From NCBI RefSeq assembly GCF_004136015.1, contig NZ_CP024866.1, positions 717,743-781,742 of the forward strand: DNA of 64,000 nucleotides, written 5' to 3'. This DNA comes from Pseudomonas sp. ACM7. Its GTDB lineage: Bacteria; Pseudomonadota; Gammaproteobacteria; Pseudomonadales; Pseudomonadaceae. The notes beneath the pieces are model-generated. The model searched no databases. It was not told the origin of the DNA and was given only the letters and a program-made list of their open reading frames with translations. Each line of letters starts with the position of its first letter. Position 1 is the stretch's first letter. Positions 16,365-48,291 of this stretch are shown in pieces. A program made the translations under genes and the position numbers.

Positions 16365-16550
16365 AAAGGGCAGGCTTCATTGCAATACGAAACATTTTCT
16401 TTCATATCCCCCTTCGGGATTTTCGATGCTCATCCGTCTTATTTAGATGCAGTCGGCCCGCGTAGGCAAAAGCCACGGCCGGCCTTTCATGGACCTCATC
16501 GCCGAGAAGACCGCAGCAGAGGCCCATTCATCGAAACAAGACCTTTAATC

Positions 16551-17747
16551 ATGTCGAAGAAATCCCGTTCAAAACTCTGGTTTCTGGTCCATAGCTGGCT
16601 GGCATTGCCGATCTGGTTTTTCGTACTGATCGTCTGCGTGACCGGCACCCTGGCGGTGATCAGCCAGGAAATCGTCTGGCTGGCCAACCCGCAAATGCGC
16701 GCCAGCCAACCCTCGGACGATGCGCCGCTGCTCAGTTATGACCAGATCATAGCCGCGATCAAAAAAGCGGAGCCGAACACACTGGTCGAAGGCATCAGTC
16801 GGCCCGATGAATCGCACTTCGCCCTCGACGTGGACGTCAGCTACCCCGACGGTCGCTCCGTGACGGTCTACGTCAATCCCTACAGCGGCGTCATTCAGGG
16901 CACGGCGCCGCAGTTCAATTTCAAGGCGTTTACCCGCGCCCTGCATGGCTGGTGGCTCGTGCCGTTTACCAATGGCTACAGCTGGGGCTGGTACCTGGTG
17001 TCATTCCTGAGCTTGCCGTTGCTGGCTTCGTTGGTCACCGGGCTGGTGGTCTACAAGCGTTTCTGGAAAGGTTTCTTGCGCCCGACGTTGCGCATTCGTC
17101 ACGGCGCACGGATTTTCTGGGGCGACTTTCACCGCCTCAGCGGCATCTGGTCGATCTGGTTCATCGCGGTGATTTCCATCACCAGCACCTGGTTTCTGAT
17201 TCAGGCGTTCATGTTCGATAACCAGATTTCGATTTCCACCGCGCCGGTGGCTGCCGTGGTCCCGCGTGAAAGTGTCCCGCTGACTGCCGACGGTTCGCCA
17301 GCGCCGATGATCAGCCTGGAGACGGCGATCCGCGAAGCCAAGGAACGTATTCCCGGACTGGACGACAGCTTCGTCAGCCTGCCTGCCAATGCCTATAGCT
17401 ATCTGTCGGTAGGCGGACGCAGTTGGTATCCGCTGATGTTCCAGACCGCCGACATCAACCCGTACACCGGCGACATCGCCGCCACCCGCCTGTTGTCGGA
17501 TCGTTCCGGCCTGGAGCTGGTGACCGAATCCATGCGTCCGCTGCACACCGGGGATTTCGGCGGCATCTGGATCAAGCTGATCTGGTTCTTCTTCGGCCTG
17601 ATCCTGAGCATGATGGTCCTCAGCGGCCTGTTGATCTGGACCAAACGCACCGCCCTGGCCACGGCCAATGCCCTCAAGCGCAGCCATAAACGCCCGCGCA
17701 GCCAGACCGCTGCGGCCCACAGCCGTGAAACCACGGAGGTCAGCTAA
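16551..17747 (+). CDS. PepSY-domain membrane protein, possible metal reductase
   Basis: A 398-residue inner-membrane protein of the PepSY_TM family with four membrane segments: WFLVHSWLALPIWFFVLIVC near the N-terminus, two around residues 140-230, and one near 345-370. Membrane-proximal histidines are seen at VHSW, ALHGWW, DFHRLSG and PLHTGDFGG, the pattern found in FoxB/PiuB-like proteins thought to bind haem and reduce iron-siderophores. A PepSY segment (ISLETAIREAKERIPGLDDS) lies in the periplasmic loop. It heads an overlapped operon that ends with a metal ABC transporter, so it may reduce or release metal in the periplasm; that is inference. The start MSKKSRSK is preferred over longer frames running through REP DNA. 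Confidence 0.85.
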   Translation: MSKKSRSKLWFLVHSWLALPIWFFVLIVCVTGTLAVISQEIVWLANPQMRASQPSDDAPLLSYDQIIAAIKKAEPNTLVEGISRPDESHFALDVDVSYPDGRSVTVYVNPYSGVIQGTAPQFNFKAFTRALHGWWLVPFTNGYSWGWYLVSFLSLPLLASLVTGLVVYKRFWKGFLRPTLRIRHGARIFWGDFHRLSGIWSIWFIAVISITSTWFLIQAFMFDNQISISTAPVAAVVPRESVPLTADGSPAPMISLETAIREAKERIPGLDDSFVSLPANAYSYLSVGGRSWYPLMFQTADINPYTGDIAATRLLSDRSGLELVTESMRPLHTGDFGGIWIKLIWFFFGLILSMMVLSGLLIWTKRTALATANALKRSHKRPRSQTAAAHSRETTEVS

Positions 17748-18289
17748 TGAGTCTGTTTACCGCTGATAAACCGGGCTCGAAACTGAGTCGTTTCTGGCAC
17801 AAATGGCGCTTCCACATCAACGTTCTGCTGTTGCTGGTGCCGCTGGGCTTCATGCCCAAATACTTTGCCGACGCTGCGCTGTTTCGCGGTGACACCGGCC
17901 TGGGCGAGCGGGAGATCGGCGAGGTTCAGGTCGGCCCCTGGAGCCTGCGCCTGGCCGAATTGCGTAACGATGCACCGACCCTCGATGGTCCGGCCGGTTA
18001 CATGAAGAACTTCAACGCGGCGCTGTGCGACAGCTGCCGCGATCAGGTCAAGGCGACTTACCTGCGTATTGGCAAACCGCGCAGCCTGCGCGCTGCCGGG
18101 GTGATTTTCTTTGGCACGCCGTACCGCATGGGCGCGATGTTGCCGATCCCCGAGAAGACCAAAGCCGACGCCGAGCTGTGGATCACCATGGAAGGCTGGG
18201 ACGGCGCCATGCATCAGGCCTCCGTCCCCCTGAGCCAGGCATCCCCGGCCACCCTCGCCTGGCTGAACCAACAAGGAGGCAAACCATGA
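17747..18289 (+). CDS. single-span envelope protein with a CxxC motif
   Basis: A 180-residue protein with one membrane segment (INVLLLLVPLGFMPKYF, residues 25-41) and a periplasmic domain containing AALCDSCRDQVKATYL, a CxxC motif that could bind metal or cycle a disulfide, and a conserved-looking GVIFFGTPYRMGAMLPIPEKTKADAE... region. No known enzymatic motif is recognised. Its ATG overlaps the PepSY stop (TAATG), and it overlaps the next gene by ATGA, so the three are translationally coupled. Confidence 0.7.
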   Translation: MSLFTADKPGSKLSRFWHKWRFHINVLLLLVPLGFMPKYFADAALFRGDTGLGEREIGEVQVGPWSLRLAELRNDAPTLDGPAGYMKNFNAALCDSCRDQVKATYLRIGKPRSLRAAGVIFFGTPYRMGAMLPIPEKTKADAELWITMEGWDGAMHQASVPLSQASPATLAWLNQQGGKP

Positions 18290-18615
18290 TCAACGTTATA
18301 CGTCCTCTGAGCGCCACGCTGCTGGTGCTCTGCGCCGGTTTCAGCGCCAGCGCCCTGGCCCACAACCCGATGTGCGAATGCAAAGCCATCGACGCCGAGC
18401 AGATCAAATGCACCGGCGGTTTCTCCGACGGCAGCGGCGCGCCGGGCGTGACCCTGGATGTGATCGGCTACGACGAAACCATCCTGGTGCCCGGCAAGCT
18501 CGGCGCCGATTCGACCCTGACTTTCAAGAAGCCCGGCGCCGAGTTCTACGTGCTGTTCGACGCAGGTCCCGGTCACGTCGTCGAGATTGACCAAGCGGAC
18601 ATCGAAGCCCCATGA
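18286..18615 (+). CDS. small secreted protein resembling CbiL/NikL accessory domains
   Basis: A 109-residue protein with a Sec signal peptide (hydrophobic core TLLVLCAGFSASALA, cleavage near ALA-HN). The mature N-terminus begins HNPMCECKAIDAEQIKC: one His and three Cys near the new N-terminus, a plausible metal site. The rest, GFSDGSGAPGVTLDVI and FYVLFDAGPGHVVEIDQ, resembles the FSDG...DAGPGH pattern of the periplasmic CbiL/NikL domain of nickel and cobalt transporters. It overlaps both neighbours by ATGA. Confidence 0.7.
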   Translation: MINVIRPLSATLLVLCAGFSASALAHNPMCECKAIDAEQIKCTGGFSDGSGAPGVTLDVIGYDETILVPGKLGADSTLTFKKPGAEFYVLFDAGPGHVVEIDQADIEAP

Positions 18616-19184
18616 GTACACCGACTACGCAAATCGTCCGCCCGGCCGGTGCCGGCCATGAAACCCTCTATGTGTTGCTGTTGTGCCTGATGATCCTCGC
18701 GGTTGCCGGCTCGGTAGTCGCCTGGCGCGGTGAGTCTCAGGAAGTCAGCAGCGTTGGCAGCCATCAACTGGATGCCCGTCGTGACTTGAGCGCGTCCGAG
18801 CAAGGCATCTACGCCGACCTGCGGGTGACGCTCGACGAAATTCATCTGCTGCGTCAGGAGCAACAAGCGCTACCCGCCCCCGCCGCCCTCGCCGATGAAG
18901 GTTTTGCGCCGTTCGCCCAGGACGCCAGTTCCGTCAGCCGCGGCGGTCATGCCTGGCAATTGCTCGACGCCAAGGCTTACTTCGGCCAGAGCCAGACGCC
19001 CACCGTGGCGGGTTCGTTTCTGATGCGTTTGACCGCTGACGATGATGCTCCGGACGTCTGGCTCAACCGCGGCAACGCCCTCGCTGCCCCGACCGACCTC
19101 ACCGACGCCGCGCTGGAAAGCGCTGGCTGGCAGCAGATCGTCGCGCAATTCGATGCCGGCGTGACCCGCCAGCACCGGCACTGA
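18612..19184 (+). CDS. membrane-anchored protein (DUF6162-like)
   Basis: A 190-residue protein with one N-terminal membrane segment (LYVLLLCLMILAVAGSVVAW) and a periplasmic region with a helical part (YADLRVTLDEIHLLRQEQQA) followed by GGHAWQLLDAKAYFGQSQTP and a C-terminal ...TRQHRH histidine tail. No enzymatic motif is visible. Proteins like this, assigned to a domain of unknown function, recur beside ZnuA-like ABC operons in pseudomonads. It may hold or pass on the substrate at the membrane, but this is inference. Confidence 0.65.
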   Translation: MSTPTTQIVRPAGAGHETLYVLLLCLMILAVAGSVVAWRGESQEVSSVGSHQLDARRDLSASEQGIYADLRVTLDEIHLLRQEQQALPAPAALADEGFAPFAQDASSVSRGGHAWQLLDAKAYFGQSQTPTVAGSFLMRLTADDDAPDVWLNRGNALAAPTDLTDAALESAGWQQIVAQFDAGVTRQHRH

Positions 19185-19219
19185 ACCCTCGCCTTCACCC
19201 GAGAGAAGACCGCTTTCCC

Positions 19220-20146
19220 ATGCCTATTTCATCTCAACGTTCTTTCTTGCGCCTGATGTTGGTCGGCTTACTGGCTTGTCTGCTGACCCCGCTGGCCTAT
19301 GCCGACGCGGCCAAGCGCCTGCGCATCGGCATCACCCTGCACCCTTATTACAGCTACGTGGCGAACATCGTCGGTGACAAGGCCGAGGTGGTGCCGCTGA
19401 TTCCGGCCGGTTTCAACCCGCATGCCTACGAGCCGCGCGCCGAAGACATCAAGCGCATCAGCGGTCTGGACGTAGTCGTGCTCAACGGTGTCGGCCATGA
19501 CGACTTCGCCGACCGCATGATCGCCGCCAGCGAAACGCCGAACATTCCCGTGATCGAAGCCAACGAAAATGTACCGTTGCTGGCCGCCACCGGCGTCGCC
19601 GCTCGCGGCGCCGGCAAGGTCGTAAACCCGCACACCTTCCTGTCGATCAGTGCCTCGATTGCCCAGGTCAACAACATCGCACGGGAACTGGGCAAGCTCG
19701 ACCCGGCCAATGCCAAGACCTACACCCAGAACGCCCGCGCCTACGGCAAACGCCTGCGGCAGATGCGCGCCGACGCCCTGGCGAAACTGACCCAGGCGCC
19801 GAACGCCGAACTGCGAGTGGCCACGGTTCACGCGGCTTACGACTATTTGCTGCGCGAGTTTGGCCTGGAAGTGACCGCCGTGGTCGAACCGGCCCACGGC
19901 ATCGAACCGAGCCCGAGCCAGTTGAAAAAAACCATCGATCAACTGCGGGAACTGGACGTGAAAGTGATCTTCTCGGAGATGGATTTCCCGTCCACCTACG
20001 TCGAGACCATCCAGCGTGAATCCGGGGTGAAGCTGTACCCGCTGTCGCACATTTCCTATGGCGAGTACACCGCCGACAAGTATGAAAAGGAAATGACCGG
20101 CAACCTCAACACCGTGGTCCGGGCGATTCAGGAGTCCGGCCAATGA
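19220..20146 (+). CDS. ZnuA-like metal ABC transporter binding protein
   Basis: A 308-residue periplasmic binding protein with a signal peptide (LRLMLVGLLACLLTPLAYADA). It has the cluster A-I features: ITLHPYYSYVANIVGDKAEV, GFNPHAYEPRAEDI (first ligand His), VNPHTFLSISASI (second), VATVHAAYDYLLREFGLE (third) and a late FSEMDFPS acidic ligand. The long linking helix separates the two lobes. The His-rich acidic loop of ZnuA proper is absent, so the metal could be zinc, manganese or another ion. Its stop overlaps an ATG that no longer opens the ATPase frame (see next entry). Confidence 0.88.
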   Translation: MPISSQRSFLRLMLVGLLACLLTPLAYADAAKRLRIGITLHPYYSYVANIVGDKAEVVPLIPAGFNPHAYEPRAEDIKRISGLDVVVLNGVGHDDFADRMIAASETPNIPVIEANENVPLLAATGVAARGAGKVVNPHTFLSISASIAQVNNIARELGKLDPANAKTYTQNARAYGKRLRQMRADALAKLTQAPNAELRVATVHAAYDYLLREFGLEVTAVVEPAHGIEPSPSQLKKTIDQLRELDVKVIFSEMDFPSTYVETIQRESGVKLYPLSHISYGEYTADKYEKEMTGNLNTVVRAIQESGQ

Positions 20147-20202
20147 CGGCTAAAGAAACCATCTGTGCACAAAACCCAACCCCGACAGCCCCCGAATCCC
20201 CT

Positions 20203-20222
20203 GTGGGAGCGGCGGTGCGACG
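20203..20222 (+). repeat. REP-variant fragment before the ABC ATPase frame
   Basis: GTGGGAGCGGCGGTGCGACG is one half of a known fluorescens REP variant, preceded by the usual AATCCCCT flank. It lies between the binding-protein stop and the ATPase coding sequence and directly abuts codons that still read as ATPase (LDFAEVSL). Confidence 0.6.
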
Positions 20223-20243
20223 CTGGATTTTGCGGAGGTCAGT

Positions 20244-20921
20244 TTGACCCTCGGGCGCACGACGATCCTCGACAACGTCACGTTCCAGGTCCAGCCCGGC
20301 AGCGTGCATGCACTGGTCGGCCCCAACGGTGGCGGCAAAAGCTCGCTGATCAAGACCTTGCTCGGGCAGATGCCCCATCAGGGTCGCTTGAGTCTGCAAT
20401 GGCCCGGCACACCTGGAACCATCGGCTACGTACCCCAAGCCCTGGAATTCGATCGAGGTTTGCCGATGACCGTCGACGATTTCATGGCCGCGATGTGCCA
20501 GCGGCGCCCGGCGTTTCTCGGGTTGAGCAAGCACTACGCCGCCGCGATTGGCGAAGCCCTGGAACGGGTCGGTATGCAGGACAAACGGAAGCGGCGCATG
20601 GGTGCGTTGTCCGGCGGTGAGCGCCAGCGGGTGTTGCTGGCTCAGGGACTGATTCCGGCGCCGCAGTTGCTGGTGCTCGACGAACCGATGTCGGCGCTAG
20701 ACGAGGCCGGTATTCAGGTGTTCGAACGGCTGCTCGGCGACTGGCGCCAGAGCGGCATCACCGTGCTGTGGATCGAGCATGATCTGGAAGCGGTTGGACG
20801 TCTGGCGGATCGGGTCACCGGGCTCAATCGCCGGGTACTGTTCGATGCCACGCCGAAACAGGCGCTGACCCCGGAGCGATTGCTGACCCTGTTTTCGACC
20901 CAACCACGGAGGGCTGCCTGA
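20244..20921 (+). CDS. metal ABC transporter ATPase, start uncertain
   Basis: A 225-residue nucleotide-binding protein: VGPNGGGKSSLIKTLLG (Walker A), YVPQALEFDRG (Q-loop), GALSGGERQRVLLAQGL (signature), LLVLDEPMSALDE (Walker B) and WIEHDLEAV (switch His). The frame used starts at TTG 20244 with GGAGG five bases upstream. However, the same frame upstream reads LDFAEVSL, the usual first beta strand of ABC ATPases, and has no ATG or GTG back to a TAA at 20150; the coupled ATG at 20143 is in another frame. A REP fragment sits at the junction, so the original start seems lost or shifted by one base. Confidence 0.82.
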   Translation: MTLGRTTILDNVTFQVQPGSVHALVGPNGGGKSSLIKTLLGQMPHQGRLSLQWPGTPGTIGYVPQALEFDRGLPMTVDDFMAAMCQRRPAFLGLSKHYAAAIGEALERVGMQDKRKRRMGALSGGERQRVLLAQGLIPAPQLLVLDEPMSALDEAGIQVFERLLGDWRQSGITVLWIEHDLEAVGRLADRVTGLNRRVLFDATPKQALTPERLLTLFSTQPRRAA

Positions 20922-21820
20922 TGAGTTACGAAGCCTTTCGTTTGATGGTCCAGGGTTGGGCCTCGTCGGGTTACTTGCCCGAGGCGCTGGCCTATGGATT
21001 TGTGGTCAACGCGTTGCTCGCCGGCTTGCTGATCGGCCCGGTGCTGGGCGGATTGGGTACGTTGGTGGTGGTCAAGCGTTTCGCGTTTTTCTCTGAAGCG
21101 GTGGGCCACGCGGCGCTGACCGGCGTGGCCATCGGCATTCTGCTGGGCGAACCTTACACCGGGCCTTATGGCAGTCTGTTCGGCTACTGCTTGTTGTTCG
21201 GCATCTTGCTGAATTACCTGCGTAACCGCACGGGTCTGGCGCCGGATACGTTGATCGGTGTGTTTCTGTCGGTGTCGTTGGCGCTGGGTGCCAGTCTGCT
21301 GCTGATTCTGGCGGGCAAGATCAACGTACACATCCTCGAAAACGTACTGTTCGGTTCGGTACTGACCGTCAACGGCAATGACCTGCTGGTGCTGGCCATC
21401 GTCGGTTCGCTGGTCATGGCGCTGGCCTTGCCGTTGTACAACCGCATCATGCTGGCCAGTTTCAATCCGCAACTGGCGGCGGTGCGTGGTGTGGCGGTGA
21501 AGACCCTGGATTATCTGTTTGTGATTCTGGTGACCCTGATCACCGTGGCGGCGGTGAAAGTCATCGGCGCGATTCTGGTCGGTGCTCTGCTGGTGATTCC
21601 AGCTGCAGCTGCGCGATTGCTGAGTCAGTCGCTGAAGGGCTTCTTCTGGTGCTCGGTGCTGATCGCCACGGTCAGCACGCTGTGCGGGATCCTTGCGCCG
21701 ATTGTCTTCGACCTGCCTATCCCGTCCGGCGCCGCGATCATTCTGGTGGCCGGTATCGCCTTCGCTCTCGCCGCCATTGCGCGTGGCGTTGTCCCCAGCC
21801 TGAAAGGGAATCTCGGATAA
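20921..21820 (+). CDS. metal ABC transporter permease (ZnuB-like)
   Basis: A 299-residue membrane protein with about eight hydrophobic segments and the family motifs: GGLGTLVVVKRFAFFSEAVGHAALTGVAIG near the N-terminus and VKVIGAILVGALLVIPAAAARLLSQ in the second half, both typical of the ABC-3 family that imports zinc, manganese or iron. Its ATG overlaps the ATPase stop (TGATG) and its own stop is followed at once by the ATG of the next gene. It should form the membrane channel with the ATPase. Confidence 0.9.
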   Translation: MSYEAFRLMVQGWASSGYLPEALAYGFVVNALLAGLLIGPVLGGLGTLVVVKRFAFFSEAVGHAALTGVAIGILLGEPYTGPYGSLFGYCLLFGILLNYLRNRTGLAPDTLIGVFLSVSLALGASLLLILAGKINVHILENVLFGSVLTVNGNDLLVLAIVGSLVMALALPLYNRIMLASFNPQLAAVRGVAVKTLDYLFVILVTLITVAAVKVIGAILVGALLVIPAAAARLLSQSLKGFFWCSVLIATVSTLCGILAPIVFDLPIPSGAAIILVAGIAFALAAIARGVVPSLKGNLG

Positions 21821-22735
21821 ATGTTTTTTACTTTGCGTCAATTGACCCTGGCATTGACCTTCACATTGCCCCTGTGCGGGCTGGTCAACACAACCTTTGC
21901 AGCTGACAGCGTCAAACCGCTGCGCGTGCTGGCGTCCTTGCCGATCACTTATGGTCTGGGCGCAGTCTTGCTCAAAGGCACCGATGTCAACCTTGAACGT
22001 GCCGCGCCGGCGAATTTGCCCGGTAGCCGTCAGACCGCGTACTTCACGGGTCGTGGCGCGCCGGCGCTGGCCAAACTGGCGACCAACGCCGATGCGGTGA
22101 TCGGCCTGCGCTCGTTGTGGGCGGATGATCCGCTGTATCCGATCTCCCGGCGTAGCAACATCCGCATCATTGAAATCGACGCCGCCCGCCCGGTGGACGG
22201 CGCCCTGCCCGGCATCGCCGTGCAACCCGGCAACAAAGTTGATGGGTTGAACAGTCAGCCGTGGTTTTCCAGCAACAATATGGGGCGGATGGCGGACGTT
22301 ATGGCGGCGGACCTGGTGCGCCTGGCGCCCGAGGCAAAGCCGAAGATCGAGGCTAACCTGGCGACGCTCAAACAGCGCTTGCTCAAGCTCAGCGCTGACA
22401 GCGAAGCGCGGTTGGCCAGTGCCGATAACCTCAGCGTGATGAGCCTGAGCGATCACTTTGGCTATCTGATCGGCGGCCTCAACCTGGAACTGATCGGCCT
22501 CGATGCGCGGCCGGACGCCGAGTGGACACCTGAAGCGCTCAATCAATTGGGTGCGATGCTCAAGGACAATGACGTGGCGGTGGTGCTGCATCACCGACAG
22601 CCGTCGGATGCGGTGAAAGCGGTGATTGCTGAGGCTGGGAGTCGGTTGGTGGTGTTGAGTGTGGATGCGGCGGATCCGGTGGCCGAGCTGGAGGGGAATG
22701 TGGATTTGGTGATCAAGGGGTTGAGCGGGGCGTAA
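21821..22735 (+). CDS. second, divergent metal-type ABC binding protein
   Basis: A 304-residue secreted protein with a signal peptide (LTFTLPLCGLVNTTFAADS) and the overall two-lobe layout of cluster A-I binding proteins, including a long helix (AKPKIEANLATLKQRLLKLS). The usual ligands are not conserved: where ZnuA has PHxYEP it reads LPGSRQTAYF, and where it has PHxWLSP it reads SQPWFSSNNM; only LSDHFGYLIGG retains a His. It may bind a metal complex or serve as a regulator of the first binding protein. It directly follows the permease stop. Confidence 0.8.
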   Translation: MFFTLRQLTLALTFTLPLCGLVNTTFAADSVKPLRVLASLPITYGLGAVLLKGTDVNLERAAPANLPGSRQTAYFTGRGAPALAKLATNADAVIGLRSLWADDPLYPISRRSNIRIIEIDAARPVDGALPGIAVQPGNKVDGLNSQPWFSSNNMGRMADVMAADLVRLAPEAKPKIEANLATLKQRLLKLSADSEARLASADNLSVMSLSDHFGYLIGGLNLELIGLDARPDAEWTPEALNQLGAMLKDNDVAVVLHHRQPSDAVKAVIAEAGSRLVVLSVDAADPVAELEGNVDLVIKGLSGA

Positions 22736-22921: not shown

Positions 22922-23149
22922 TCAGTGAGCCACAGCCGCTTGTTCTTCCATCTTCTGGCGCAAGCTCAGTGGACGCATGTCAGTCCAGGTTTCTTCAATG
23001 TAAGCCAGGCATTCCTTTTTCAGGCCGCTCTTGCCCACGGTGCGCCAGCCTGCAGGCACGGCTTTGTAGTCGGGCCAGATCGAGTACTGCTCTTCGTGGT
23101 TGACCACGACCTGAAAGAGGATGTCCTCGCGGTCGAATACTGAAGTCAT
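22922..23149 (-). CDS. MbtH-like NRPS helper protein
   Basis: A 75-residue MbtH-family protein: [35 protein letters not shown] and [27 protein letters not shown] contain the invariant Trp and Pro positions. It binds and activates adenylation domains of NRPSs, here presumably those of pyoverdine. GGAGAAACACC precedes the ATG. It has its own PvdS-type promoter overlapping the pvdH stop codon, so it is made with the pyoverdine enzymes. Confidence 0.93.
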
Positions 23150-23209: not shown

Positions 23210-23233
23210 ACGTTAGAGGCGCTGAAAAATTTA
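23210..23233 (-). promoter_or_regulatory. PvdS promoter of the mbtH-like gene
   Basis: Read leftward, TAAAT (23229-23233), 16 bp, CGT (23210-23212): an exact iron-starvation box recognised by sigma PvdS. The first three bases of TAAAT are the TAA stop codon of pvdH. Confidence 0.85.
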
Positions 23234-24643
23234 GAGGCTGGCGGTGGCAGCGGCCATGGCTCGGCCGAAAATCTCGGCCACCCGATCGATTTCCGCGGCA
23301 GTGATCACCAGCGGCGGCAGGAAGCGCACCACGCCGCCATGACGCCCGCCCAGTTCGAGGATCAAGCCGCGCTTGAGGCATTCACGCTGCACCAGCGGCG
23401 ACAGACGACCGAAGATCGGCGGATGACCCAGCGCATCCGGCTCGCCAGTCGGATCGACCAGCTCAACACCCAGCATCAAGCCGCGCCCCCGAATATCACC
23501 CAGCTGCGGGAAGTCCCGTTGCAGGATGCGCAGGTGTTCGCTCAAGCGTTCGCCCATGGCGGCAGCGTGCTCGCAGACCTTGTGTTCGGTCAGGTAACGC
23601 ATCACCGCAGAACCTGCGGCCATGGCCATCTGATTGCCGCGGAAGGTCCCGGCATGGGCGCCCGGCAGCCAGGTGTCGAGCCAGTCGCGATAGACCACCA
23701 CGGCCAACGGCAAACTGCCACCGATGGCTTTGGACATGACCACTACGTCGGGAATGATCCCGGCGTGTTCGAAGGCGAACATCTTGCCGGTGCGGGCAAA
23801 ACCGCTCTGAATCTCGTCGACGATCAGCGCGACACCGGCCTTTTCGGTAATCCGTCGCAGGCCGCGCAACCAATCAAGATCGGCCGGGATCACCCCACCC
23901 TCGCCCTGCACCGCTTCAACGATCACCGCGGCCGGCAATTGCACACCGGCCTCTGGATCATTGAGCAGGTTTTCCAGGTAGTTGAGATTGACCTGCACAC
24001 CTTGCGCGCCGCCGAGACCGAACGGGCAGCGATAATTGTAAGGATATGGCATGAACTGCACACCGCTGCTGAGCAAGGCGCCCAAGGGTTTTTTCGGCCC
24101 CAGACTGCCCATCAGGCTCAGCGCGCCTTGGCTCATGCCGTGATAACCGCCCTGGAACGACAACACGGTGCTGCGTCCGGTGGCGGTGCGCACCAGTTTC
24201 AGCGCGGCTTCCACCGCGTCGGTGCCGGTCGGGCCACAGAACTGGATCCTGGCTTCAGCGGCCAAAGCCAGCGGCAGCAGACTGAACAGGTCCTGAACGA
24301 ACTGATCCTTGACCGGGGTGGTCAGGTCGAGGGTGTGCAGCGGCAGTTCATCCGTCAGCACTTGCTGGATCGCTTCGATCACCACCGGATGGTTGTGCCC
24401 AAGGGCCAACGTCCCTGCGCCGGCCAGGCAGTCGATGAAACGGCGGCCTTCGACGTCTTCGACATAAATGCCCTTGGCACGCTTGAGGGCCAGGGGAATG
24501 CGTCGCGGATAGCTGCGGGCATTCGATTCCTGCTGGTTTTGACGGGCCAGCAGCGGCGATTCGTTGAACTGATAAAGCGTCTCGGTCGGCGCCGGAGTGA
24601 TCCGGGCCGACTGATCTTCCATAAGGCTGGTAGCGACTGACAT
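23231..24643 (-). CDS. pvdH: L-2,4-diaminobutyrate:2-oxoglutarate aminotransferase PvdH
   Basis: A 470-residue class III aminotransferase that makes diaminobutyrate for the pyoverdine chromophore. CGPTGTDAVEAALKLVRTAT and FQGGYHGMSQGALSLMG form the PLP pocket, VIVEAVQGEGGVIPAD and ALIVDEIQSGFARTGKMFAFE carry the PLP Asp, and MSKAIGGSLPLAVVV the Schiff-base Lys. The start MSVATSLMED has GAGGGGTCGAGAG before it and lies about 37 bp after a PvdS box. It is followed by the mbtH-like gene, as near pvdH in P. aeruginosa. Confidence 0.93.
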   Translation of the reverse strand: MSVATSLMEDQSARITPAPTETLYQFNESPLLARQNQQESNARSYPRRIPLALKRAKGIYVEDVEGRRFIDCLAGAGTLALGHNHPVVIEAIQQVLTDELPLHTLDLTTPVKDQFVQDLFSLLPLALAAEARIQFCGPTGTDAVEAALKLVRTATGRSTVLSFQGGYHGMSQGALSLMGSLGPKKPLGALLSSGVQFMPYPYNYRCPFGLGGAQGVQVNLNYLENLLNDPEAGVQLPAAVIVEAVQGEGGVIPADLDWLRGLRRITEKAGVALIVDEIQSGFARTGKMFAFEHAGIIPDVVVMSKAIGGSLPLAVVVYRDWLDTWLPGAHAGTFRGNQMAMAAGSAVMRYLTEHKVCEHAAAMGERLSEHLRILQRDFPQLGDIRGRGLMLGVELVDPTGEPDALGHPPIFGRLSPLVQRECLKRGLILELGGRHGGVVRFLPPLVITAAEIDRVAEIFGRAMAAATASL

Positions 24644-24679: not shown

Positions 24680-24703
24680 ACGCATCAGGGCGCCGAGGAT
24701 TTA
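24680..24703 (-). promoter_or_regulatory. PvdS promoter of pvdH
   Basis: Read leftward, TAAAT (24699-24703), 16 bp, CGT (24680-24682): an exact iron-starvation box 37 bp before the pvdH start. It lies just past the end of the neighbouring acetyltransferase gene, so pvdH is expressed independently of it. Confidence 0.88.
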
Positions 24704-33176: not shown

Positions 33177-36100
33177 TCAAAGCCCCTCCAACTCCGCCAT
33201 CAAATCGTTAAGGCGATCCACCTTCTCCTCAGTGATGTCGCTCGCCGCCAATCCGTCGATGTACCCAGCCAACTCCGCCACCGTGCTGCATTCAAACATC
33301 GCCCGCAGCGGCACATCCCGTTGCAGAGCTTTCTGCACCCGCGAAGCGATCTGCGTTGCCAGCAATGAATGCCCGCCCAGCTCGAAGAAGTTGTCGCGAA
33401 TACCCACCTTCTCGACCTTCAGCACCTCGGCCCAGATATCCGCCAGCGTCTGCTCCAGTTCATTGCGCGGCGCCCGGTAGCCCTGGCTCTGCAACTGGCC
33501 GATCTCCAGCGCCGGCAAAGCCTTGCGATCAAGTTTGCCGTTGGCGTTGAGCGGCATGCGATCCAGCCATAGCCAGTGCAACGGCACCATGTATTCCGGC
33601 AGTTCGGCACGCAGGCGTTGCTTGATGCGTTCCAGTCGCTCGGTTGGATTGATCAAAGAATCAGCCGCTACCAAATAGCCGACCAGATGTTTGCCGTTGA
33701 CCCCTTCCTGTACACCCACCGCCGCTTCGCGCACTTGCGGTTGCTCATGCAGACGCGCTTCGATTTCACCCAGTTCGATGCGGTAGCCGCGGATCTTCAC
33801 TTGATGGTCGATCCGCCCGACGTATTCCAGCACGCCGTCACTGCGCCGACGGGCCAGGTCGCCGGTGCGATACAGACGATCACCCGGCGCACCAAACAGG
33901 TCAGGCACAAACACTTGAGCCGTGCGCAAAGGATCACTGACGTAGCCACGGCCGACACCGGTACCCGCGACGCACAACTCGCCCACCACACCCAACGGCA
34001 CCAGTTCCAAGGCACCATCAAGCAAGTACAAACGGTTGTTGTCGGTCGGCGTACCAATCGGCAGGTAGCTGCCGCGCGTCGACGCCATGTCGACGCGAAA
34101 GAAAGCCACGTCATCCGAGCATTCCGCCGGACCGTAAGCATTCACCAGCCCGATCTCCGGGTAGCGCTGCAGCCACTGATGCGCCAGCTCCGGCGGCATT
34201 GCCTCACCGGTCGGCAGCATCCAGCGCAGACCGTCGAGACTCATGCGTTCCTGGGCGAGCATGCCCTGAATCAGCGACGGCACGCTTTCCAGCACGGTGA
34301 TGCCCTGGGCCGCCACATGCGCCAGCAACCCTTGCAGATCATGGGCGATGGTGTTCGGCACGATGTCCACCCGAGCGCCGAACAGCGGTGCGGCGAGGAA
34401 CTGCCAGACCGAAATGTCGAAACTTTGCGAGGCGGTCTGAGCGATCACATCGGCATCGCTCAAATTCAGGTACGGCACCTTGCTCAACTGGTTGTTGAGC
34501 ATGCCGCGCTGTTCGACCATCACGCCTTTCGGCAGGCCGGTCGAGCCCGAGGTGTAGATCACGTAGGCGAGGTTGTCCGGGCCGCTGTAGATGCCCGGGT
34601 TGGCAACCGAAACATCGCTCGCCTGTACCTCTTCCCAGACCAACAACGTGGGCCGGTTGGCGCAACCGAACTCATCCAGCAGCGCCAACGCATGCTCGCG
34701 GCAGGCCTGAGAACAAACCAGCAACGGCGTGCGGCTCAGGTCAATGATCCGGCTCAGACGCTGACTCGGCAGCCCCGGATCCAGCGGCAAATAACCTGCG
34801 CCAGCCTTGAAGCTGCCGATGATCATGCCCAGCAGATCGAGGTTGCGTTCAGCCAGCAACGCCACCGGTTGATCCAGCCTTACGCCAGCGGCGATCAAGG
34901 CATGACCGAGACGGTTACTGCGCTGGTTCAGCTCAAGGTAACTGTGCTGCTGATCCAGGCAACTGGCGGCAACCCGTTGCGGATGCTGAGCAACCTGCGC
35001 TTCAAACAATGAGACGTAACTCTGCTCCAGCGGGTACTCGTGTTCGCTCTGGTTGCAGCCGTGGATCAGGAAGTCCTGTTCCTCGGCACCCAGCAACGGC
35101 AGATCGGCCATGTCGCCGTGGAAACCTTCGACCAGTGCCAGCAGCAACCGTTTGAACTCGCCGAGCATGCGCTCGACGGTCGACTCATCGAAATAACGCT
35201 GGTCGTAAGACAGGTGCAAACCCAGGTCCTCGCCCGGATAGCAGACCGCCGTCAGCGGGAAGTTGGTGTGGGTGCGGCCCGAATCCGAGGTCGCGTTGAG
35301 GCTTTGCGCACGGTCCAGCACCGAGACTTCCACCGGGGCGTTTTCGAACACGAACAGGCTGTCGAACAACGGCTGGCCCTTGGGCAGTTCGCTGTTTTCC
35401 TGAATGCTCACCAGCGGCAGGTATTCGTACTCGCGCAGTTGCATGTTGCTGTCGAGCAAGCCACTGAGCCATTGACGAACACTGCAACGCTGATCGTCTT
35501 CGGGCATTTTTACCCGTAGCGCGATGCTGTTGATGAACAGCCCGACCGTGCGTTGCATCTGCGGCATGTCCACCGGACGCCCGGCCACCGTGACACCAAA
35601 CAGCACGTCGCGATCACCACTCAAACGACGCAACACCAGCGCCCACGCCGCTTGGGCAAAGGTATTGATGGTCAGTTGATGCGCCTGAGCCAGTTCGCGC
35701 AGTTGCGCACCGTCACGAGCATCGAGCCTTGTGTAGCGGTCGCCGACGATCATGCCGCCGCTTTCGCCGGCATGTTCACGCAGGAACGGCCGGTCGCTCG
35801 GAATCGGCGTGGTCCGCTCGAAGCCTTGCAGGTTGGTTTTCCACCACTGCCGCGCCTCGGCCAGGCTTTGGCGTTGCAGCCAGCCGATGTAGTCGCGATA
35901 ACGCGGTGGCACGGCCAGTTGCGCGTCCCGGCCTTCGCCGAGGGCGGTGTAGATTTCGAAGAAATCGTTCATCAGCAGCGACCGGCACCAGGCATCAATG
36001 AGGATGTGGTGGTTGCTCATCATGAACCAGTAACGCGCCGCGCCGACCTTGATCAGGCGCAGGTGGAACGGTGCCTGATTGAGCAGATCGAACCCGGCCT

Positions 36101-39100
36101 CGCGCTCGCTTTTGAGCAGCGCCTGCAACTTCGGCTCTTGCTCGGCTTCAGCGATTGCCGTCCAGTCCAGATACTCGATCGGCGTGCTGCCCGGCTTGTG
36201 GATAACTTGCAGCATGTCTTCGCCGACGTTCCAGCAGAACGACGCGCGCAGGGCTTCGTGACGGGCGATCACCGCTTGCCAGGCCTGGGCGAAACGCTGC
36301 GGGTCGAGCTCGCTGTTGATGCGGTAGCGATCCTGCATGTAGTAGAGGCCGGTGCCCGGTTCCAGCAAGGTGTGCAGCAGCATGCCTTCCTGCATAGGCG
36401 TCAGCGGGTAGACGTCTTCGATGACGGCGGTCGGGATTGGCAGCGCGTCGAGTTGCGGTTGAGTCAGCTTGGCCAGCGGGAAGTCCGAGGGCGTCAGTCC
36501 GCCCGCGTCGTCGTGCAAGCAATGCTCGATCAGGCTCTGCAATTCGCCGAGGTAAGTGTCTGCCAATTCAGTGATGGTCTGCAGATCGTGGCGTTCGGCG
36601 CTGAAGTTCCAACGCAGCACCAGCTCACCGCCATAGACCTGGCTGTCGACGCTCAGCTCATTGGGCAGCGGCGCGCACGGATCATGGGCCGCGCCGACCG
36701 CTTCATCGAGAGGACGGAACAAGGCGTCCGCGCCGAAGCTCTGGTCGAACTGGCCGAGATAGTTGAAGGTGATCGGCGCCACCGGCAAGGCCGCCATGGT
36801 CTGCCGGCTCGAGTCATCGGCGAGATAACGCAGCACGCCATAACCCAGACCTTTGTGCGGGACCGCGCGCAGTTGTTCCTTGATCGCCTTGATCGAGGCG
36901 CCCTGCCCGTTTTTCGGCGTCAAGCGCAGCGGGTAAGCGCTGGTGAACCAGCCGACGGTGCGGGTCAGGTCGATCTCGTCGAACAGCGTTTCGCGGCCGT
37001 GACCTTCGAGTTGAATCAGCGCCGATTCGTGACCGCTCCAGCGGCACAGCACGCGGGCCAAAGCGGTCAGCAGCAAGTCGTTGACCTGGGTGCGATAGGC
37101 ACTCGGCGCTTGCTGCAACAATTGGCGGGTGCGCTCGCTGTCGAGGCGCACGCTGACGGTTTGCGCATGACCATTCTGCCGGCCACCCTCGGGGCGATCA
37201 CACGGTAATTCGGCGCTTTGACCGGCCAGTTGCGACTGCCACCAGCTCAATTCTTCACGCAGGGATTCGCTACCGGCATACGCTTGCAAACGTGCCGCCC
37301 AGTCCTTGAAGGCACTGGTTTTCGCCGGCAGTTTTGCCGACTGCCCCGCGTCCAGTTGGCGATACACCGTTTGCAAATCGTCCAGCAACACCCGCCACGA
37401 AACCCCATCCACGACCAAGTGGTGAATGGCGATGAACAGCCGTTGTTGGCCCTCGGGACCGTCGACCAGCAGCGCGCGCATCAGCGGCCCTTCCTCAAGG
37501 TCAAGGCTGCGCTGGGCATCAGCGAACAGCGCCGCGCATTTGTCCATGGACGAAACACGCACTTGCCACAGCACCGGCGCGTCGGAAACCACCTGGTGCT
37601 CGGCCTGCCATTGACCTGCTATTTCAGAGAAACGCAAACGCAAGGCGTCGTGCTGTTCGATCACTGCCAGCAGTGCTTGCTCCAGGCGATGGGGCTCTAG
37701 CGCCTCGGTCGGTTCCAGCAGCAATGCCTGGTTCCAGTGTTGGCGCTGGGGGATGTCGGTGTCGAAGAACCAGTGCTGGATCGGCGTCAGACGCGATTCG
37801 CCGGTCAGCAAACCTTGCTCGGCCGTGACCTGCTCGGTGCGGGTCGCCACGGCGGCCAGGGTCTGCACGGTCTGGTGCTGGAACAGGTCACGAGGGCTGA
37901 AGTGAATGCCCTGCTGCCGCGCACGGCTGACCACCTGGATCGACAAAATCGAATCGCCGCCCAGTTCGAAGAAGTTGTCGTTGAGGCCGACCTGCAGGAC
38001 GTTCAGCACTTCGCACCAGATCGCGGCCAGCGTCAGTTCAAGCTCGTTGCTCGGTGCCACGTAATGCTGACGGTTCAGCTCCGGGTCCGGTGCCGGCAAT
38101 GCGCGGCGGTCGAGTTTGCCGTTGGTGGTCAGCGGCATGCTGGCCAGCAGGATCAAATGCGTTGGCACCATGTAATCCGGCAGCTGGGACTTGAGGTGCG
38201 CCTTCAACGCCTCACGCAGTGCGTTTTGTTGCGCTTCATCTTGCTCGGCGACTTCAGTCACCAGATAGCCGACCAGTTGTTTGCCGCTCGGGGCATCCAG
38301 CGCCAGCACCACGGCTTCACGGATCGATTCATGTTCCAGCAGTCGGGTTTCGATTTCGCCCAGTTCAATGCGGAAACCACGAATCTTCACTTGATGGTCA
38401 ATACGTCCGAGGTATTCCACCAGACCATCGGCGCGCTGACGCACCAGATCGCCGGTGCGGTACAGACGCCCGCCATTGGCGGCGAACGAATCAGCCACAA
38501 AACGTTCGGCCGTCATGCCCGGACGCTGGTGATAACCCTGCGCCAGACCAGCGCCGCCGACGTACAACTCGCCCGTCGCGCCTTGCGGCACCAACGCCAG
38601 ATCAGCGTCGAGGATGTAGGCCACGCGCGCGCCGATCACACTGCCGATCGGCACGCTGCCGAGGCCTTCTTCCAATTGCTCGGGCGCCAGACTGGCCAGC
38701 GGCATGACCACGGTTTCGGTCGGGCCGTAGGCGTTGAAAAACAGGCTCGGCTTGAACGCCGCGCGAATCCGCGCCAGGTGCTCGCCAGTCAGCGCTTCAC
38801 CGCCGGTGATGCACATGCGCACCGGCAGGATTTCGCCCTGCGTCGCCAGCCACTGCGCCAATTGGCTGCCGTAGCTTGGGGTGAAGCCGAGGATGTTGAT
38901 GTTGTGACGGCGAATCAGCCCGCAGATTTCTTCCGCGTCCCACTGACCTTGAGCGCGCAAAACGACTTGAGCACCACTCAACAGCGGCACCAGCAACCGC
39001 TCGGTCGCGGCGTCGAAGTTGATGGAATAGAAGTGCAGTTCGCAATCGTCCGGGCGCATGCCGAAGCGCGCGATCACCGCGCGGCAGTGCATGGCGATTT

Positions 39101-42100
39101 CACCGTGGGACACCACCACGCCTTTCGGTTTGCCGGTGGAGCCCGAGGTGTAAATCAGGTACGCCTGATGCTGCGGCAGGCTGATAAACAGCAGCTCGGT
39201 GGCCGGGTAGTTGGCCAGTTCTGCTGTGTCCTCCTCCAGGCACCAGCGAGCCACGGTAGGCGGTAGTTCGCCAAGCGCTTCGAACATCGCCGCATCGCTG
39301 AGCAGCAAACCGATGCCACTGTCTTCGATCATGTAGTGCAAACGATCCAGCGGGTATTCCGGGTCCAGCGGCACGTAGGCGCCGCCCGCCTTGAGGATCG
39401 CCAGCAGGCCGACGACCATTTCCAGTGAACGCTCAAGCGCCAGACCGACCCGAACCTGCGGCCCGACGCCACGCTCGCGGAGCATCCAGGCCAGGCGATT
39501 GGCGCGGCTGTCGAGTTCGGTGTAGCTCAGGGTTTGCCCGGCGAAGGTCAGTGCCGGCGCATCTTTGCGCGCCAGCGCCTGCTCGCTGAACAGGTGATGA
39601 ATGCACTGGTCGAGGCGATGTTCGCCCGGCTCGACGCCGAGGCTGTCGAGCAGGTTTTGCTGTTCGGTGGCTTCCAGCAGCGGCAGCTCACTGAGGCGCT
39701 GTTGCGGATCGGCCAGCAGCGCTTCCAGCAGGTTGCGCCAATGCCCGGCCATCCGCGCAATGCGTGGTTCATCGAACAGATCGGTGCTGTAGGTCAGGCA
39801 GCAACCCAGGCGATGGTCGAGGTCGGTGACTTCCAGGTTGAGGTCGAACTTGGTCGCACGCGCATCGTTGGCCAGGTATTCGACGGTCATGCCCGCGAGT
39901 GTGCGGCTCTGCTGGAATTCCCAGCGCTGCACGTTGCACATCACCTGGAACAACGGGTTGTAAGCGGCGCTGCGCGGTGGCTGCAAGGCTTCCACCAAGT
40001 GATCGAACGGCAAGTCCTGATGGGACTGGCCTTCGATCACGGTATGGCGAACCTGCTCGAACAATTCGCTGACGGACATCTGCCCGTCGAGCTGGCAACG
40101 CAACACTTGGGTGTTGAGGAACGCCCCGATCAGCCCTTCGCTTTCCGGACGAATCCGGTTGGCCACCGGCGCGCCGATGCGCAGGTCGGTCTGACCGCTG
40201 TAGCGGTAAAGCAGCACCGCCAACGCGGCGGTCATGGTCATGAACAGGGTCAGACCGTTTTGTGCATTGAAGGCGCGGACCCGCGCGGCAAGATCATCGC
40301 TCAGGTCGAAACGGAACAGTTCGCCCTGATGGCTTTGCACCGGTGGACGCGGACGGTCGCCCGGCAATTCCAGCAGCGGATGTTCGCGGCCCAGTTGCGC
40401 GGTCCAGTAATCGAGTTGGCGCTGACGTTCGCCGGACTCCAGCCACTGGCGCTGCCAGACGCTGTAATCCAGGTAGTGCACCGGCAGCGGTTGCAGCGGT
40501 GATTCGCGGTCATCGACGAAGGCCTCGTAGAGCGCGCTCAGTTCCCGGGCGAAGATGTCCATCGCCCAGCCTTCGGTGACGATGTGGTGCAGGGTCAGCA
40601 CCAGGTAGTGCTCCTGCTCGGCGGTCTTGACCATGCAGGCGCGCAGCAGGGGTCCGGTTTCCAGATCGAAGGGTTTATGTGCCTCGTCGTCGGCCAGTTG
40701 CTGGACGCGTTGTTCGCGGCGATCAACGTCGAGCGCGGAGAAGTCCTTCCAGTCCATGCGCATCCCGGTGTCCGGGTGAACCCGTTGCTGCGCCACGCCA
40801 TCGATGCTCGGGAACGTGGTGCGCAGAGTTTCATGACGCATGATCAGTGCTTGCAGCGCGGCTTCGAAGCGCCCGACATCGAGCACCCCGCGCAGCCGCG
40901 CCATGCCGCCAACGTTGTAGGCCGGGCTGTCCGGTTCCATCTGCCAGAGGAACCACATGCGCTGCTGGGAATAGGACAACGGCACCGGTTGGCTGCGATC
41001 GACTTTCTCGATCGGCGGTTGCTGGTTGGTTTTGCCGCTGGCCTGGATCAGTTGAACCTGTTCGGCAAAGGCGCCCAGTTCACTGTTTTCGAACAGCGCG
41101 CGCAGCGGCAACTCGACGTCGCAGGCCTGACGGGTGCGGGAAATGATTTGCGTGGCCAGCAAGGAATGGCCGCCGAGTGCGAAGAAATCGTCGCGCAGAC
41201 CGATTTTCGCGAGGCCCAATACCTCACGCCAGATGTCGGCGATTTGTTGCTCGAGGGCAGTGACCGGTTCGACGTGCTCGCGGACTTGCCATTGCGGTTC
41301 CGGCAAGGCGCGACGATCGAGTTTGCCGCTTGGGCTCAGGGGCATTTCGTCCAGACGCATGAGTTGCGCCGGGACCATGTATTCCGGCAACTCGGCGGCC
41401 AGCGCAGCTTTCAGGCGTGCGGTTTGAGCATCAATATCTTCTGTGGAATCGGTTGCGGTGTAGTAACCGATCAACTGTCCACCGGCCGCCGTCTCTCGCA
41501 CCAACACCACGGCTTGAGCGACACCGTCCTGAGCCAGCAATCGTGCTTCGATTTCTTCCGGTTCAACGCGGAAGCCACGCAGCTTGACCTGCTGATCGAG
41601 ACGGCCGAGGTATTCGATCACACCGTCAGCGGTCCAGCGTGCACGGTCACCGGTGCGGTACAGACGCGCGCCCTGCTCGCCCAATGGATCGACGACAAAA
41701 CGTTCTGCAGTCAGACCCGGACGCCCCAAATAGCCACGGGCCAAACCGATACCGCTGATGCACAGTTCACCCGGCACACCGGCCGGAACGGGATTGAGTG
41801 CCTCGTCGAGTACGCGGCACAGCACATTGCCCAGCGGACGACCAATCGGCGAGCGTTCGCCATCGGCCGTTGTGCAGTGCCAATGAGTGACGTTGATCGC
41901 GGTTTCGGTCGGGCCGTAGCGGTTGTGCAATTGCACGGCTGGCAGTTGTTCCAGCACGCGGTTGCGCAATTCGGCGGGCAAGGCTTCGCCGCCGGAGAAT
42001 ACGCAGCGCAGGCTTGTGCACTCGGCGCTCAGCGGTTCGTCGATGAACAACGCCAGCAGCGGCGGTACGAAGTGCAGCGTGGTCACGCCGAATTGCTGAA

Positions 42101-45100
42101 CCAGTTGCGCGATGCGGTGCGGATCGCGGTGTTCGACGGGGCCGGCAATCAGCAAACGTGCACCGCTGATCAGCGGCCAGAAGCACTCCCACACCGACAC
42201 GTCGAAACTGATCGGCGCCTTTTGCATCAGCACGTCGGTGTCGTTCAAACGATAGGTGTTCTGCATCCATTGCAGGCGTTCGGCGAGGGCTGCGTGGGTG
42301 TTGCCGACGCCCTTCGGCTGGCCGGTGGAACCGGAGGTGTAAATTACGTACGCCAGGTTGTCGCCGTGCAGGTGCAGGCCCGGGGCGTGGCTCGGCCAGT
42401 TCTCCAGATGCAAGGCGTCCATGGCGATCACGCTGACGCCATCGGTGGCCGGCAAGCGGTCAAGCAATTGAGTCTGGGTCAGCAGCAATTCGACGCCGCT
42501 GTCGCTGAGCATGTAGGCCAGGCGTTCGGCCGGGTAATCCGGGTCCAGCGGCACGTAGGCGCCACCGGCCTTGATGATCGCCAGCAGGCCGATCAGCAAT
42601 TGCGGCGAACGCTCGGCGGCGATGGCCACGCAGACGTCCGGGCAGACGCCTTTGTCGCGCAGGTAATGGGCCAGGCGGTTGGATTGGGTGTGCAGTTCGG
42701 CGAAGTTCATGGCGCCACCGTCCCACATCAACGCGGTGCGTTCCGGGGTCAGGCGAGCCTGTTCGTTGAGCAATTCAGGCAGCCAAACGCTGGCCGGCGT
42801 ACACGGTGCGGCGCTCCACGATGCTTGCTGATCGAGCTCGGACGAGGTCAGCAATTGCAGATCGCCGATGGCGATTTTCGGTTGTTCGCAAATGGCTCGC
42901 AGCAGGTTGGTGAAGTGCTCGGCCAGACGCTCGATAGTCGTCGCGTCGAACAGTTCGCTGGCGTAGTCGAAGGACAGGCTCAGGCGACCCTTTTGGTCTT
43001 CCTCGCTGTGCAGTTGCAGGTCGAACTTGGCTTCGCGGCTGTGCCACGGCAGCTCTTCAGCCAGCAGCCCTGGCAGGCGACGCAATGCGCTCAAATCCCG
43101 CTGCTGGTGGTTGAACATGACCTGGAACAAACCTTGTTCGCGGGCTTGCGGGAAGGCTTCGAGCAATTGCTCGAACGGCAGATCCTGATGCGCTTGTGCG
43201 CCCAACGCGGCCTGACGGGTTTGCGCCAGCAGCTCCACGAATGGCAGCTGCGAATCCAGTTCGGCGCGCAGCACCTGGGTGTTGATGAAGAAGCCGATCA
43301 GCCCTTGGGTTTCCAGGCGCGGACGGTTGGCGTTCGGCACGCCGATGCGGATGTCGCGTTGGCCGCTGTAGCGGTGCAGCAGGCTCTGGAACGCGGCGAG
43401 CAACAGCATGAACGAGGTGGATTCATGGGCCTGGGCGGTCTGGCGAATGGCATCGCTCAGGGTCGCGCCCAACCGTACGGTGTGGCGCGCGGCGCTGTGA
43501 AGGTGTTGCGCCGAACGCGGATGGTCAGTGGCCAGGCTCAGGGTCGGATGGTCACAGCCCAATTGCGCTTTCCAGTAAGCCAGCTGACGCTCGCCCTCCC
43601 CTTGCGCCAGCCATTGACGCTGCCAGCTGCCGTAATCGGCGTACTGGGTCGGCAATACCGGAAGCGTCGCCTTTTTTCCTTGGGACGCTGCGGCATACAG
43701 GCGCGAGAACTCGTCGATCAGCACGTTCAGCGACCAACCGTCGGCGATGATGTGATGCATCGTCACCAACAGTTGATGGTCCTCATCATCGAGACGCACC
43801 AGAGTCACCCACAGCAGCGGGCCTTGCTGCAGATCGAATTGCGTGCGGGCTTCGTCTTCACGGATCTGCTGTGCGCGAGCTTCACACTCGGCAACCGGCA
43901 GGTCGCTGATATCGATGAGTTGCAGGTTGAATTCGCTCGCTGCATCGACCTGTTGCAGCGCCACACCATCACGTTCGAAGAACCGCGTGCGCAGGGATTC
44001 GTGACGCTCGATCAACTGTTGGAAGCTGGCGCGCAAGGCGTCTTCATCCAGCTCGCCGCGCAGGCGCAAGGCGCCGGGAATGTTGTAGGCGCTGCTCTGC
44101 GGGTCAAGTTGCCAGGTGATCCACAGACGGTTTTGCGCAAGCGATTGCGGCATGGCATCGGTGCGCGACAACGGGGTGATCGCGCCTTGGGCGAGTCCCC
44201 CGTCCTGTTGCTGCTGAGCGACTTCGGCGGCAAACGCGCCGAGGGTCGGCGCTTCAAACAGCAGGCGCAGGTTCAGCTCCAGACCGAGTGCTTCGCGCAG
44301 ACGCGCAACCACCTGAGTGGCGGCAATGGAGTTGCCGCCCAGCAGGAAGAAGTGATCGTCGGCGCTGACCTGTTTGACGCTCAGCTGCTCGCACCAGATC
44401 TGGCCGATCAGGGTTTGCAGTTCGGAACCTGATTCAGTCGCGGATTTACTTTCGATGTCTGCCGACGGGAACAATGCATAGCTTTCGAGGCTGCCGTCCG
44501 CCAGACGATTGCGGCATGCCGAGCGTTGCAGTTTGCCGCTGGAGGTCTTGGGCAACGCGCCCGGATTGAGCAGTACCACCACGCTTGGCGCTTCCTGATA
44601 CGCCTCGGCCACGGCTTGGCGGATGGCTTTGATCAGGGCATCGGGCGGGAGGATTTTCTGCACGCTGCGGCTGATTTCCGCCGCAATGCCGATGCCTTCC
44701 TGCCCCTCGATGTTGACGGCGAAAGCGGCGACACGACCTTTGCGCACCACCTCCACTTCGCGCTCGATGGTTTGCTCGATGTCCTGCGGATAAAGGTTGT
44801 GGCCACGGACGATCAACATGTCTTTCAGGCGCCCGGTGATGAACAGTTCACCGCCGCGCATAAAGCCCAGGTCACCGGTGCGCAGCCAGGTGCGGCCAGC
44901 GTGCTGAACGAAGGTTTTGGCGCTGGCCTCCGGATTGCGCCAGTAACCGTGGGCGATACTTGGTCCGGCGGCCCAGACTTCGCCAACCGCGTCGTCAGCC
45001 AACTCGGTGAGGGCTGCTGGATCGACAATCAGCACCGCGTGATCCGGCTGACTGATGCCGCAACTCATGATCGGGCTGCCATCGCCCCGCTCGGCACGGT

Positions 45101-46460: not shown

Positions 46461-46532
46461 GTCGCTCGATGTGTTGGACGGCTAAGCCCCCGCTTGCCGT
46501 CCCGCTAACCTATTGGCAGCAAGGTGATTTCC

Positions 46533-48250: not shown

Positions 48251-48291
48251 GGGTCGGGCTCACGTTAATCGTCGACAGTTCAACGAGGTGA

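Follow-up and report, generated by a model that had tools for sequence, protein, structure and literature searches.

The eight genes at positions 16551-22735 of a 64,000-nucleotide stretch of DNA from Pseudomonas sp. ACM7 (hereafter the window; contig NZ_CP024866.1, positions 717,743 to 781,742) are almost certainly the orthologue of the Pseudomonas aeruginosa fpvGHJK-fpvCDEF operon, a system that releases iron from the siderophore pyoverdine. The assignment is based on gene content, gene order, residue conservation, genomic linkage and co-occurrence. A first-pass annotation of the window had singled out these genes as a candidate for a metal-handling operon of a new kind; the observation was right, but "undescribed" was wrong, and the operon is an already known system. 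This closes a false lead, because the pyoverdine-iron release machinery has been studied at the bench in P. aeruginosa. One small oddity of the ACM7 operon is the beginning of the ATPase gene fpvD, which has lost its usual start and carries a remnant of a repetitive extragenic palindromic (REP) sequence.

Orthology with the P. aeruginosa operon

Residues 31-307 of the window FpvC match the Protein Data Bank (PDB) entries 6ru4 and 6r3z with an E-value of 6e-157, and over 277 residues the 6ru4 chain shows 100% identity to the product of the corresponding gene of P. aeruginosa PA7. In the PA7 genome, the eight genes are all present, and their order and orientation are those of the window; the identities between the window and PA7 proteins are 71% for FpvG, 72% for FpvH, 75% for FpvJ, 49% for FpvK, 87% for FpvC, 80% for FpvD, 88% for FpvE and 57% for FpvF. 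In both genomes, fpvF is followed by two convergent genes which we take to be an mbtH-like gene and pvdH.

The arrangement is conserved far beyond this pair. From 512 confirmed loci, we kept the best 80 by similarity to FpvC (hereafter the named loci; 1.59 Mb in total); this set excludes near relatives of the window, and all of its members except one from Stutzerimonas kirkiae carry Pseudomonas titles. The complete order G-H-J-K-C-D-E-F on one strand is found in 78 of these 80 loci, so the arrangement is not a matter of chance; co-occurrence of the eight genes in other genomes, which the first-pass annotation had proposed as a check, is borne out. Of the other two, one (L101) is cut by a contig end before fpvF. 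The S. kirkiae locus (L049) contains only J-K-C-D-E, with 54-91% identity, on a contig that stops after fpvE, and fpvG and fpvH were not recognised in the 10 kb upstream of these genes. In a survey of 99 Pseudomonas genomes, a close fpvE (E-value of 1e-150 or better) is present in 73, which makes the machinery a conserved unit in the sampled members of the genus.

As read from the open reading frames (ORFs) of the window, all eight genes lie on the forward strand. The first gene, fpvG (16551..17747), encodes a protein of 398 amino acids with a PepSY_TM domain (PF03929, 4.4e-63) and PepSY sequences, by orthology a putative inner-membrane iron reductase. It is followed by fpvH (17747..18289; 180 amino acids), encoding a membrane-anchored periplasmic protein with a CxxC motif (C94/C97) for which no Pfam or NCBIfam family was matched; fpvJ (18286..18615; 109 amino acids), encoding a secreted Cys/His protein; and fpvK (18612..19184; 190 amino acids), encoding an anchored DUF6162 protein (PF19659, 8.9e-46). 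The second half of the operon encodes the components of an ATP-binding cassette (ABC) importer, namely a ZnuA-type protein that by orthology would bind Fe(II) in the periplasm (fpvC, 19220..20146; 308 amino acids), an ATPase (fpvD, 20244..20921; 225 amino acids when counted from a TTG codon; ABC_tran, 1.6e-26), an ABC-3 permease (fpvE, 20921..21820; 299 amino acids; PF00950, 2e-51) and a diverged second ZnuA-type binding protein (fpvF, 21821..22735; 304 amino acids; PF01297, 5e-18). The ORFs and the domain searches agree with the original inventory of PepSY_TM, CxxC, Cys/His and DUF6162 proteins combined with an ABC-3 importer with two binding proteins. The overlapping starts and stops that were noted along with it are found at G/H, H/J, J/K and D/E but not at K/C, where there is a 35-nt gap, or at E/F, where the genes abut, and the start of the ATPase gene is disturbed. 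The third gene does encode a secreted Cys/His protein; as to its proposed likeness to CbiL/NikL, FpvJ scores 30.1 bits against the NCBIfam model of NikL, a subunit of nickel/cobalt energy-coupling factor transporters, below the cut-off of 100.

The likeness to the P. aeruginosa system extends to the domains, the order and orientation of the eight genes, the metal-site histidines of FpvC described below and the neighbouring genes as seen in PA7. The differences are the strong divergence of FpvF and FpvK from their PA7 counterparts, the distance from fpvF to the mbtH-like gene, which is about 860 bp in PA7 but less than 200 bp in the window, and the disruption of the fpvD start.

Conserved residues and predicted folds

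Residue conservation was counted in 81 sequences for FpvC and FpvJ and in 80 sequences for FpvG and FpvH. Six histidines of FpvC (H68, H93, H138, H204, H226 and H277 in the window) are invariant in all 81 sequences, and the same six positions are glycines in PDB entry 6r6k whereas the native chain has histidines; judging by its own sequence, 6r6k is probably a metal-site mutant. In FpvG, His14, His132, His194 and His332 are invariant (80/80). The conserved membrane-side histidines of PepSY_TM reductases of the FoxB type bind haem; for FpvG itself, a sequence search gave no solved relative.

Both cysteines of the FpvH CxxC motif, C94 and C97, are invariant in all 80 sequences, and so are H26, C30, C32, C42 and H97 of FpvJ in all 81. 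An A-x-A motif immediately precedes H26 in 74 of the 81 FpvJ sequences, hence mature FpvJ may begin with this histidine. The structural model of FpvH consists of an N-terminal helix followed by a beta-rich domain, with a predicted local distance difference test (pLDDT) score of 72. The predicted folds of FpvH and FpvJ are both beta-rich and of modest confidence, and do not point safely to any function. The CxxC motif of FpvH, the His/Cys set of FpvJ, and FpvK are candidate targets for mutation in proteins whose roles are not settled. The two binding proteins differ in their degree of conservation, with a mean identity to the window protein of 72% for FpvF versus 89% for FpvC; the divergence of FpvF would fit binding of a siderophore that varies among species.

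Proposed mechanism of iron release

The sections of two published reports considered here provide the experimental background for this system. The set has been named fpvGHJKCDEF in P. aeruginosa and studied experimentally (PMC6954188), and PA2403 has been identified as FpvG, a member of this set (PMC10866019). In P. aeruginosa, FpvG is an iron reductase; FpvH is its inner-membrane partner, with its exact role open; FpvJ is a periplasmic protein of unknown function; FpvK is needed for full activity of FpvG, with no partner detected and its exact role likewise open; FpvC chelates ferrous iron; FpvF binds pyoverdine and contacts the PvdT pump subunit; and FpvDE is a putative Fe(II) importer, deletion of which affects iron acquisition (PMC6954188).

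The activities of the eight proteins in ACM7 are predicted from orthology, following the mechanism published for P. aeruginosa. Ferri-pyoverdine that has reached the periplasm would be held by FpvF together with FpvC, and the inner-membrane complex of FpvG and FpvH, aided by FpvJ and FpvK, would reduce the Fe(III) to Fe(II), a form that pyoverdine binds weakly. FpvC would then take the Fe(II) and deliver it to the ABC transporter FpvDE, which would import it. FpvF would pass the apo-pyoverdine on for recycling by the PvdRT-OpmQ pump. The outline proposed earlier from the gene content, in which one metal or metal complex is captured, reduced or released, and imported, fits the published role in obtaining iron from pyoverdine.

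Among the close parallels to FpvG are FoxB of P. aeruginosa and FhuB of Burkholderia cenocepacia, siderophore reductases of the PiuB type that have the same PepSY_TM architecture with two PepSY domains and share with FpvG the proposed reduction of Fe(III) in the periplasm; unlike fpvG, foxB and fhuB do not lie in clusters with genes for ABC transporters (PMC10866019).

Genomic context and co-occurrence with pyoverdine genes

The operon is located next to genes for pyoverdine synthesis. The putative mbtH-like gene (22922..23149, reverse strand) is convergent with fpvF, and its product is 79% identical to that of the PA7 gene in the corresponding position; an NCBIfam search with this protein gave nothing at 1e-10, and the name is our assumption. 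The next gene (23231..24643, reverse strand), presumably pvdH, encodes a diaminobutyrate-2-oxoglutarate transaminase (NF005393, 867 bits, cut-off 671; 85% identity to PA7). Further along the window are a gene for a nonribosomal peptide synthetase of 4327 amino acids that starts with a fatty acyl-AMP ligase (33177..46160, reverse strand), which we take to be pvdL-like given that its first 1000 amino acids, the part searched, align to positions 1-1006 of the 4334 positions of NF004282, and a gene for an extracytoplasmic function sigma factor (46524..47081, forward strand; NF005448, 296 bits, cut-off 190), to which we apply the name PvdS on the same presumption. In the 99 surveyed genomes, with an E-value of 1e-90 or better required for the sigma factor, fpvE and the PvdS-like sigma factor are both present in 69 and both missing in 24; four genomes have fpvE alone and two have the sigma factor alone (Fisher p ~1e-16, uncorrected for shared ancestry).

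Several observations weigh against this assignment or against a fully functional system in ACM7. Four genomes (G001, G043, G062 and G077) have a close fpvE and no PvdS-like sigma factor match at 1e-40, hence the operon is not strictly bound to pyoverdine production; possibly, genomes with fpvE that lack the sigma factor use the system for siderophores of other bacteria. In addition, four sigma factor matches of 62-71% identity (G023, G050, G053 and G079) were scored as absent, and counting them as present would shift four genomes from the class with neither gene to the class with the sigma factor alone. Direct linkage to pyoverdine genes is partial, with pvdH in the fetched DNA of 34 and the mbtH-like gene in that of 32 of the 80 named loci, some of these stretches being short. 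The motif TAAAT-N15-18-CGT, presumably the pyoverdine sigma factor box, was not found before fpvG in the window, and only 4 of the 80 fpvG upstream regions hold it, compared with a mean of 1.6 in shuffled sequences. Finally, the ATPase frame of the window contains no ATG, GTG or TTG from the upstream stop codon to the TTG at 20244, its first start codon. Because fpvD has no in-frame ATG, ACM7 may carry out the transporter step weakly or not at all.

Elsewhere in the window, the TAAAT-CGT motif has three matches, all on the reverse strand (23210-23233, 24680-24703 and 48291-48314). One precedes the mbtH-like gene, one pvdH and one an acetyltransferase gene, at distances of 37-61 nt that would suit pyoverdine sigma factor boxes, although the number of matches in the 64 kb is itself at chance level (2.15 expected). 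A different, conserved 13-nt element, CTCATYCGTCYTA, is located upstream of fpvG in the window (16429..16441, forward strand). When 400 nt upstream of fpvG were examined, this element was found 78-168 nt before the gene in 59 of 79 named loci. It occurs nowhere else on either strand of the 80 loci (1.59 Mb), with the qualification that the motif was chosen by eye from the same sequences in which it was counted.

The start of fpvD and REP-derived DNA

In 79 of the 80 named loci, fpvD opens with an ATG that overlaps the fpvC stop codon and precedes the site of the window TTG by 53-65 nt; the exception (L097) contains a run of N. By direct reading of the window, this usual ATG opens a 34-codon ORF (20143..20247, forward strand) that is out of frame with the ATPase. 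The stop codon of this ORF overlaps the TTG at 20244 (TTGA), which is preceded by GGAGG. In-frame homology of the window FpvD begins at about 20217, upstream of the TTG, and comparison with the REP-bearing junctions of relatives points to a REP remnant at 20200..20219 (forward strand).

The origin of this configuration was traced in a chosen sample of 70 distinct genomes, from which one (G010) was excluded, its locus being the related operon discussed below, leaving 69 with ACM7 included. Of the 69, 31 carry extra DNA, mostly derived from REP sequences or REPINs, within the 5' end of the fpvD coding sequence, a proportion that does not represent the frequency in the genus, given that 20 regions were selected mostly for a partial match to the junction; a larger tally of 357/398 was left unused because it took in matches to the REP sequence alone. 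The insert is absent in the other 38 genomes, all of which open from the overlapping start, and in all 79 assessable named loci, a set from which near relatives of the window are left out. The exact REP core GTGGGAGC or its complement is found in 27 of the 31 insert-bearing genomes. G416 was removed from the frame and length counts because its insert contains a run of N; of the 30 genomes that could be assessed, 28 have an insert that is open and in frame. The in-frame inserts come in 12 different lengths, adding 6-45 residues, all equal modulo 3, whereas the other two frames of the 29 open insert stretches (G416 included) are stop-free in 0 and 3. The two exceptions are ACM7 and G034, and the ATPase frame of the latter does contain a GTG.

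The window junction corresponds to that of G369 minus 100 bp, with the 5-bp repeat CGACG at both ends: the two junctions match at 112 of 128 positions when 100 bp are removed, compared with 82-85 positions for 97-99 and 101-103 bp. The loss looks like a deletion via recombination between short repeats, and an assembly fault is possible as an alternative. REP-derived DNA inside a gene is uncommon, considering that only 14 copies of the most abundant REP 16-mers in SBW25, out of a total of 1,067, overlap genes (PMC3116915). There is about an even chance that, in a lineage of the P. fluorescens group, REP/REPIN DNA has become coding in fpvD and is translated as an N-terminal extension of up to 45 residues, with the frame kept while the length drifts, and that in ACM7 most of it is missing, such that FpvD, if made at all, re-initiates at TTG 20244 without the first beta strand. 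On this evidence, REP-derived DNA within this transporter gene appears to be translated.

A variant of the orthology assignment, compatible with it and somewhat doubtful, is that FpvD has been lost in ACM7, where reduction and capture by FpvC would still run, with import through another Fe(II) transporter. The lack of an in-frame ATG or GTG before the conserved first strand of FpvD is in keeping with such a loss, and the ACM7 genome contains no close second copy of FpvD (the next best match is at 38%). However, the position of TTG 20244, overlapping the ORF stop behind GGAGG, permits coupled re-initiation, and the reading frames of the permease, FpvF and the remainder of the ATPase are open.

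Alternative assignments

Orthology with fpvGHJKCDEF has also to be weighed against other metal systems with an ABC-3 transporter. A zinc or manganese importer of the Znu, Azt or Mnt type with accessory proteins appears highly improbable. AztABC and ZnuABC share with the window operon ZnuA-type binding proteins, an ATPase and an ABC-3 permease, and the window proteins do match the AztABC, ZnuABC and MntABC models, with best E-values of 4e-41 for the binding protein, 4e-45 for the ATPase and 9e-39 for the permease. The Azt scores, however, are far below the curated cut-offs (141 of 350 bits for AztC, 154 of 220 for AztA and 134 of 280 for AztB, with the ATPase scored from the TTG start), and the best full-length match of FpvC is P. 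aeruginosa FpvC. The AztABC and ZnuABC zinc importers include no reductase and have a single binding protein and, to our knowledge, Znu systems have no place for a PepSY reductase or for linkage to pyoverdine.

The suggestion of the first-pass annotation that this is an undescribed metal-handling system, with no characterised system having the full set, is scarcely credible: among the NCBIfam models listed (for the ATPase, 25 of 189 families), none reached its own cut-off for any of the eight proteins and, in the part of PMC6954188 considered here, FpvJ has no assigned role and FpvH and FpvK lack a precisely settled one, but the full set is already described as fpvGHJKCDEF, with experimental work on its P. 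aeruginosa version (PMC6954188, PMC10866019).

A related operon without fpvG and fpvH

A permease 54-57% identical to FpvE is encoded in 7 of the 99 genomes, 5 of which also have a close fpvE elsewhere. In the three Pseudomonas loci that were read, it belongs to an operon (7600-12992 in L177, 7360-12782 in L178 and 7934-13294 in L179) that consists of genes for an Abhydrolase_10 protein, a DUF6644 protein and a second membrane protein, followed by K-, C-, D-, E-, F- and J-like genes and a DUF4198 gene; the Pfam calls were made on L178, and relatives of the genes were seen in L177 and L179. Compared with the window, the C, D and E proteins are 47-56% identical, F is 34-36% identical and J is 33-36% identical, and no match to fpvG or fpvH was detected at 1e-3 in the 15-16 kb fetched around the operon in these three loci. 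A literature search on DUF6162 gave no paper, the related operon itself not being otherwise searched in the literature. This operon may be undescribed and, as such, is a better candidate for a new metal system than the operon of the window.

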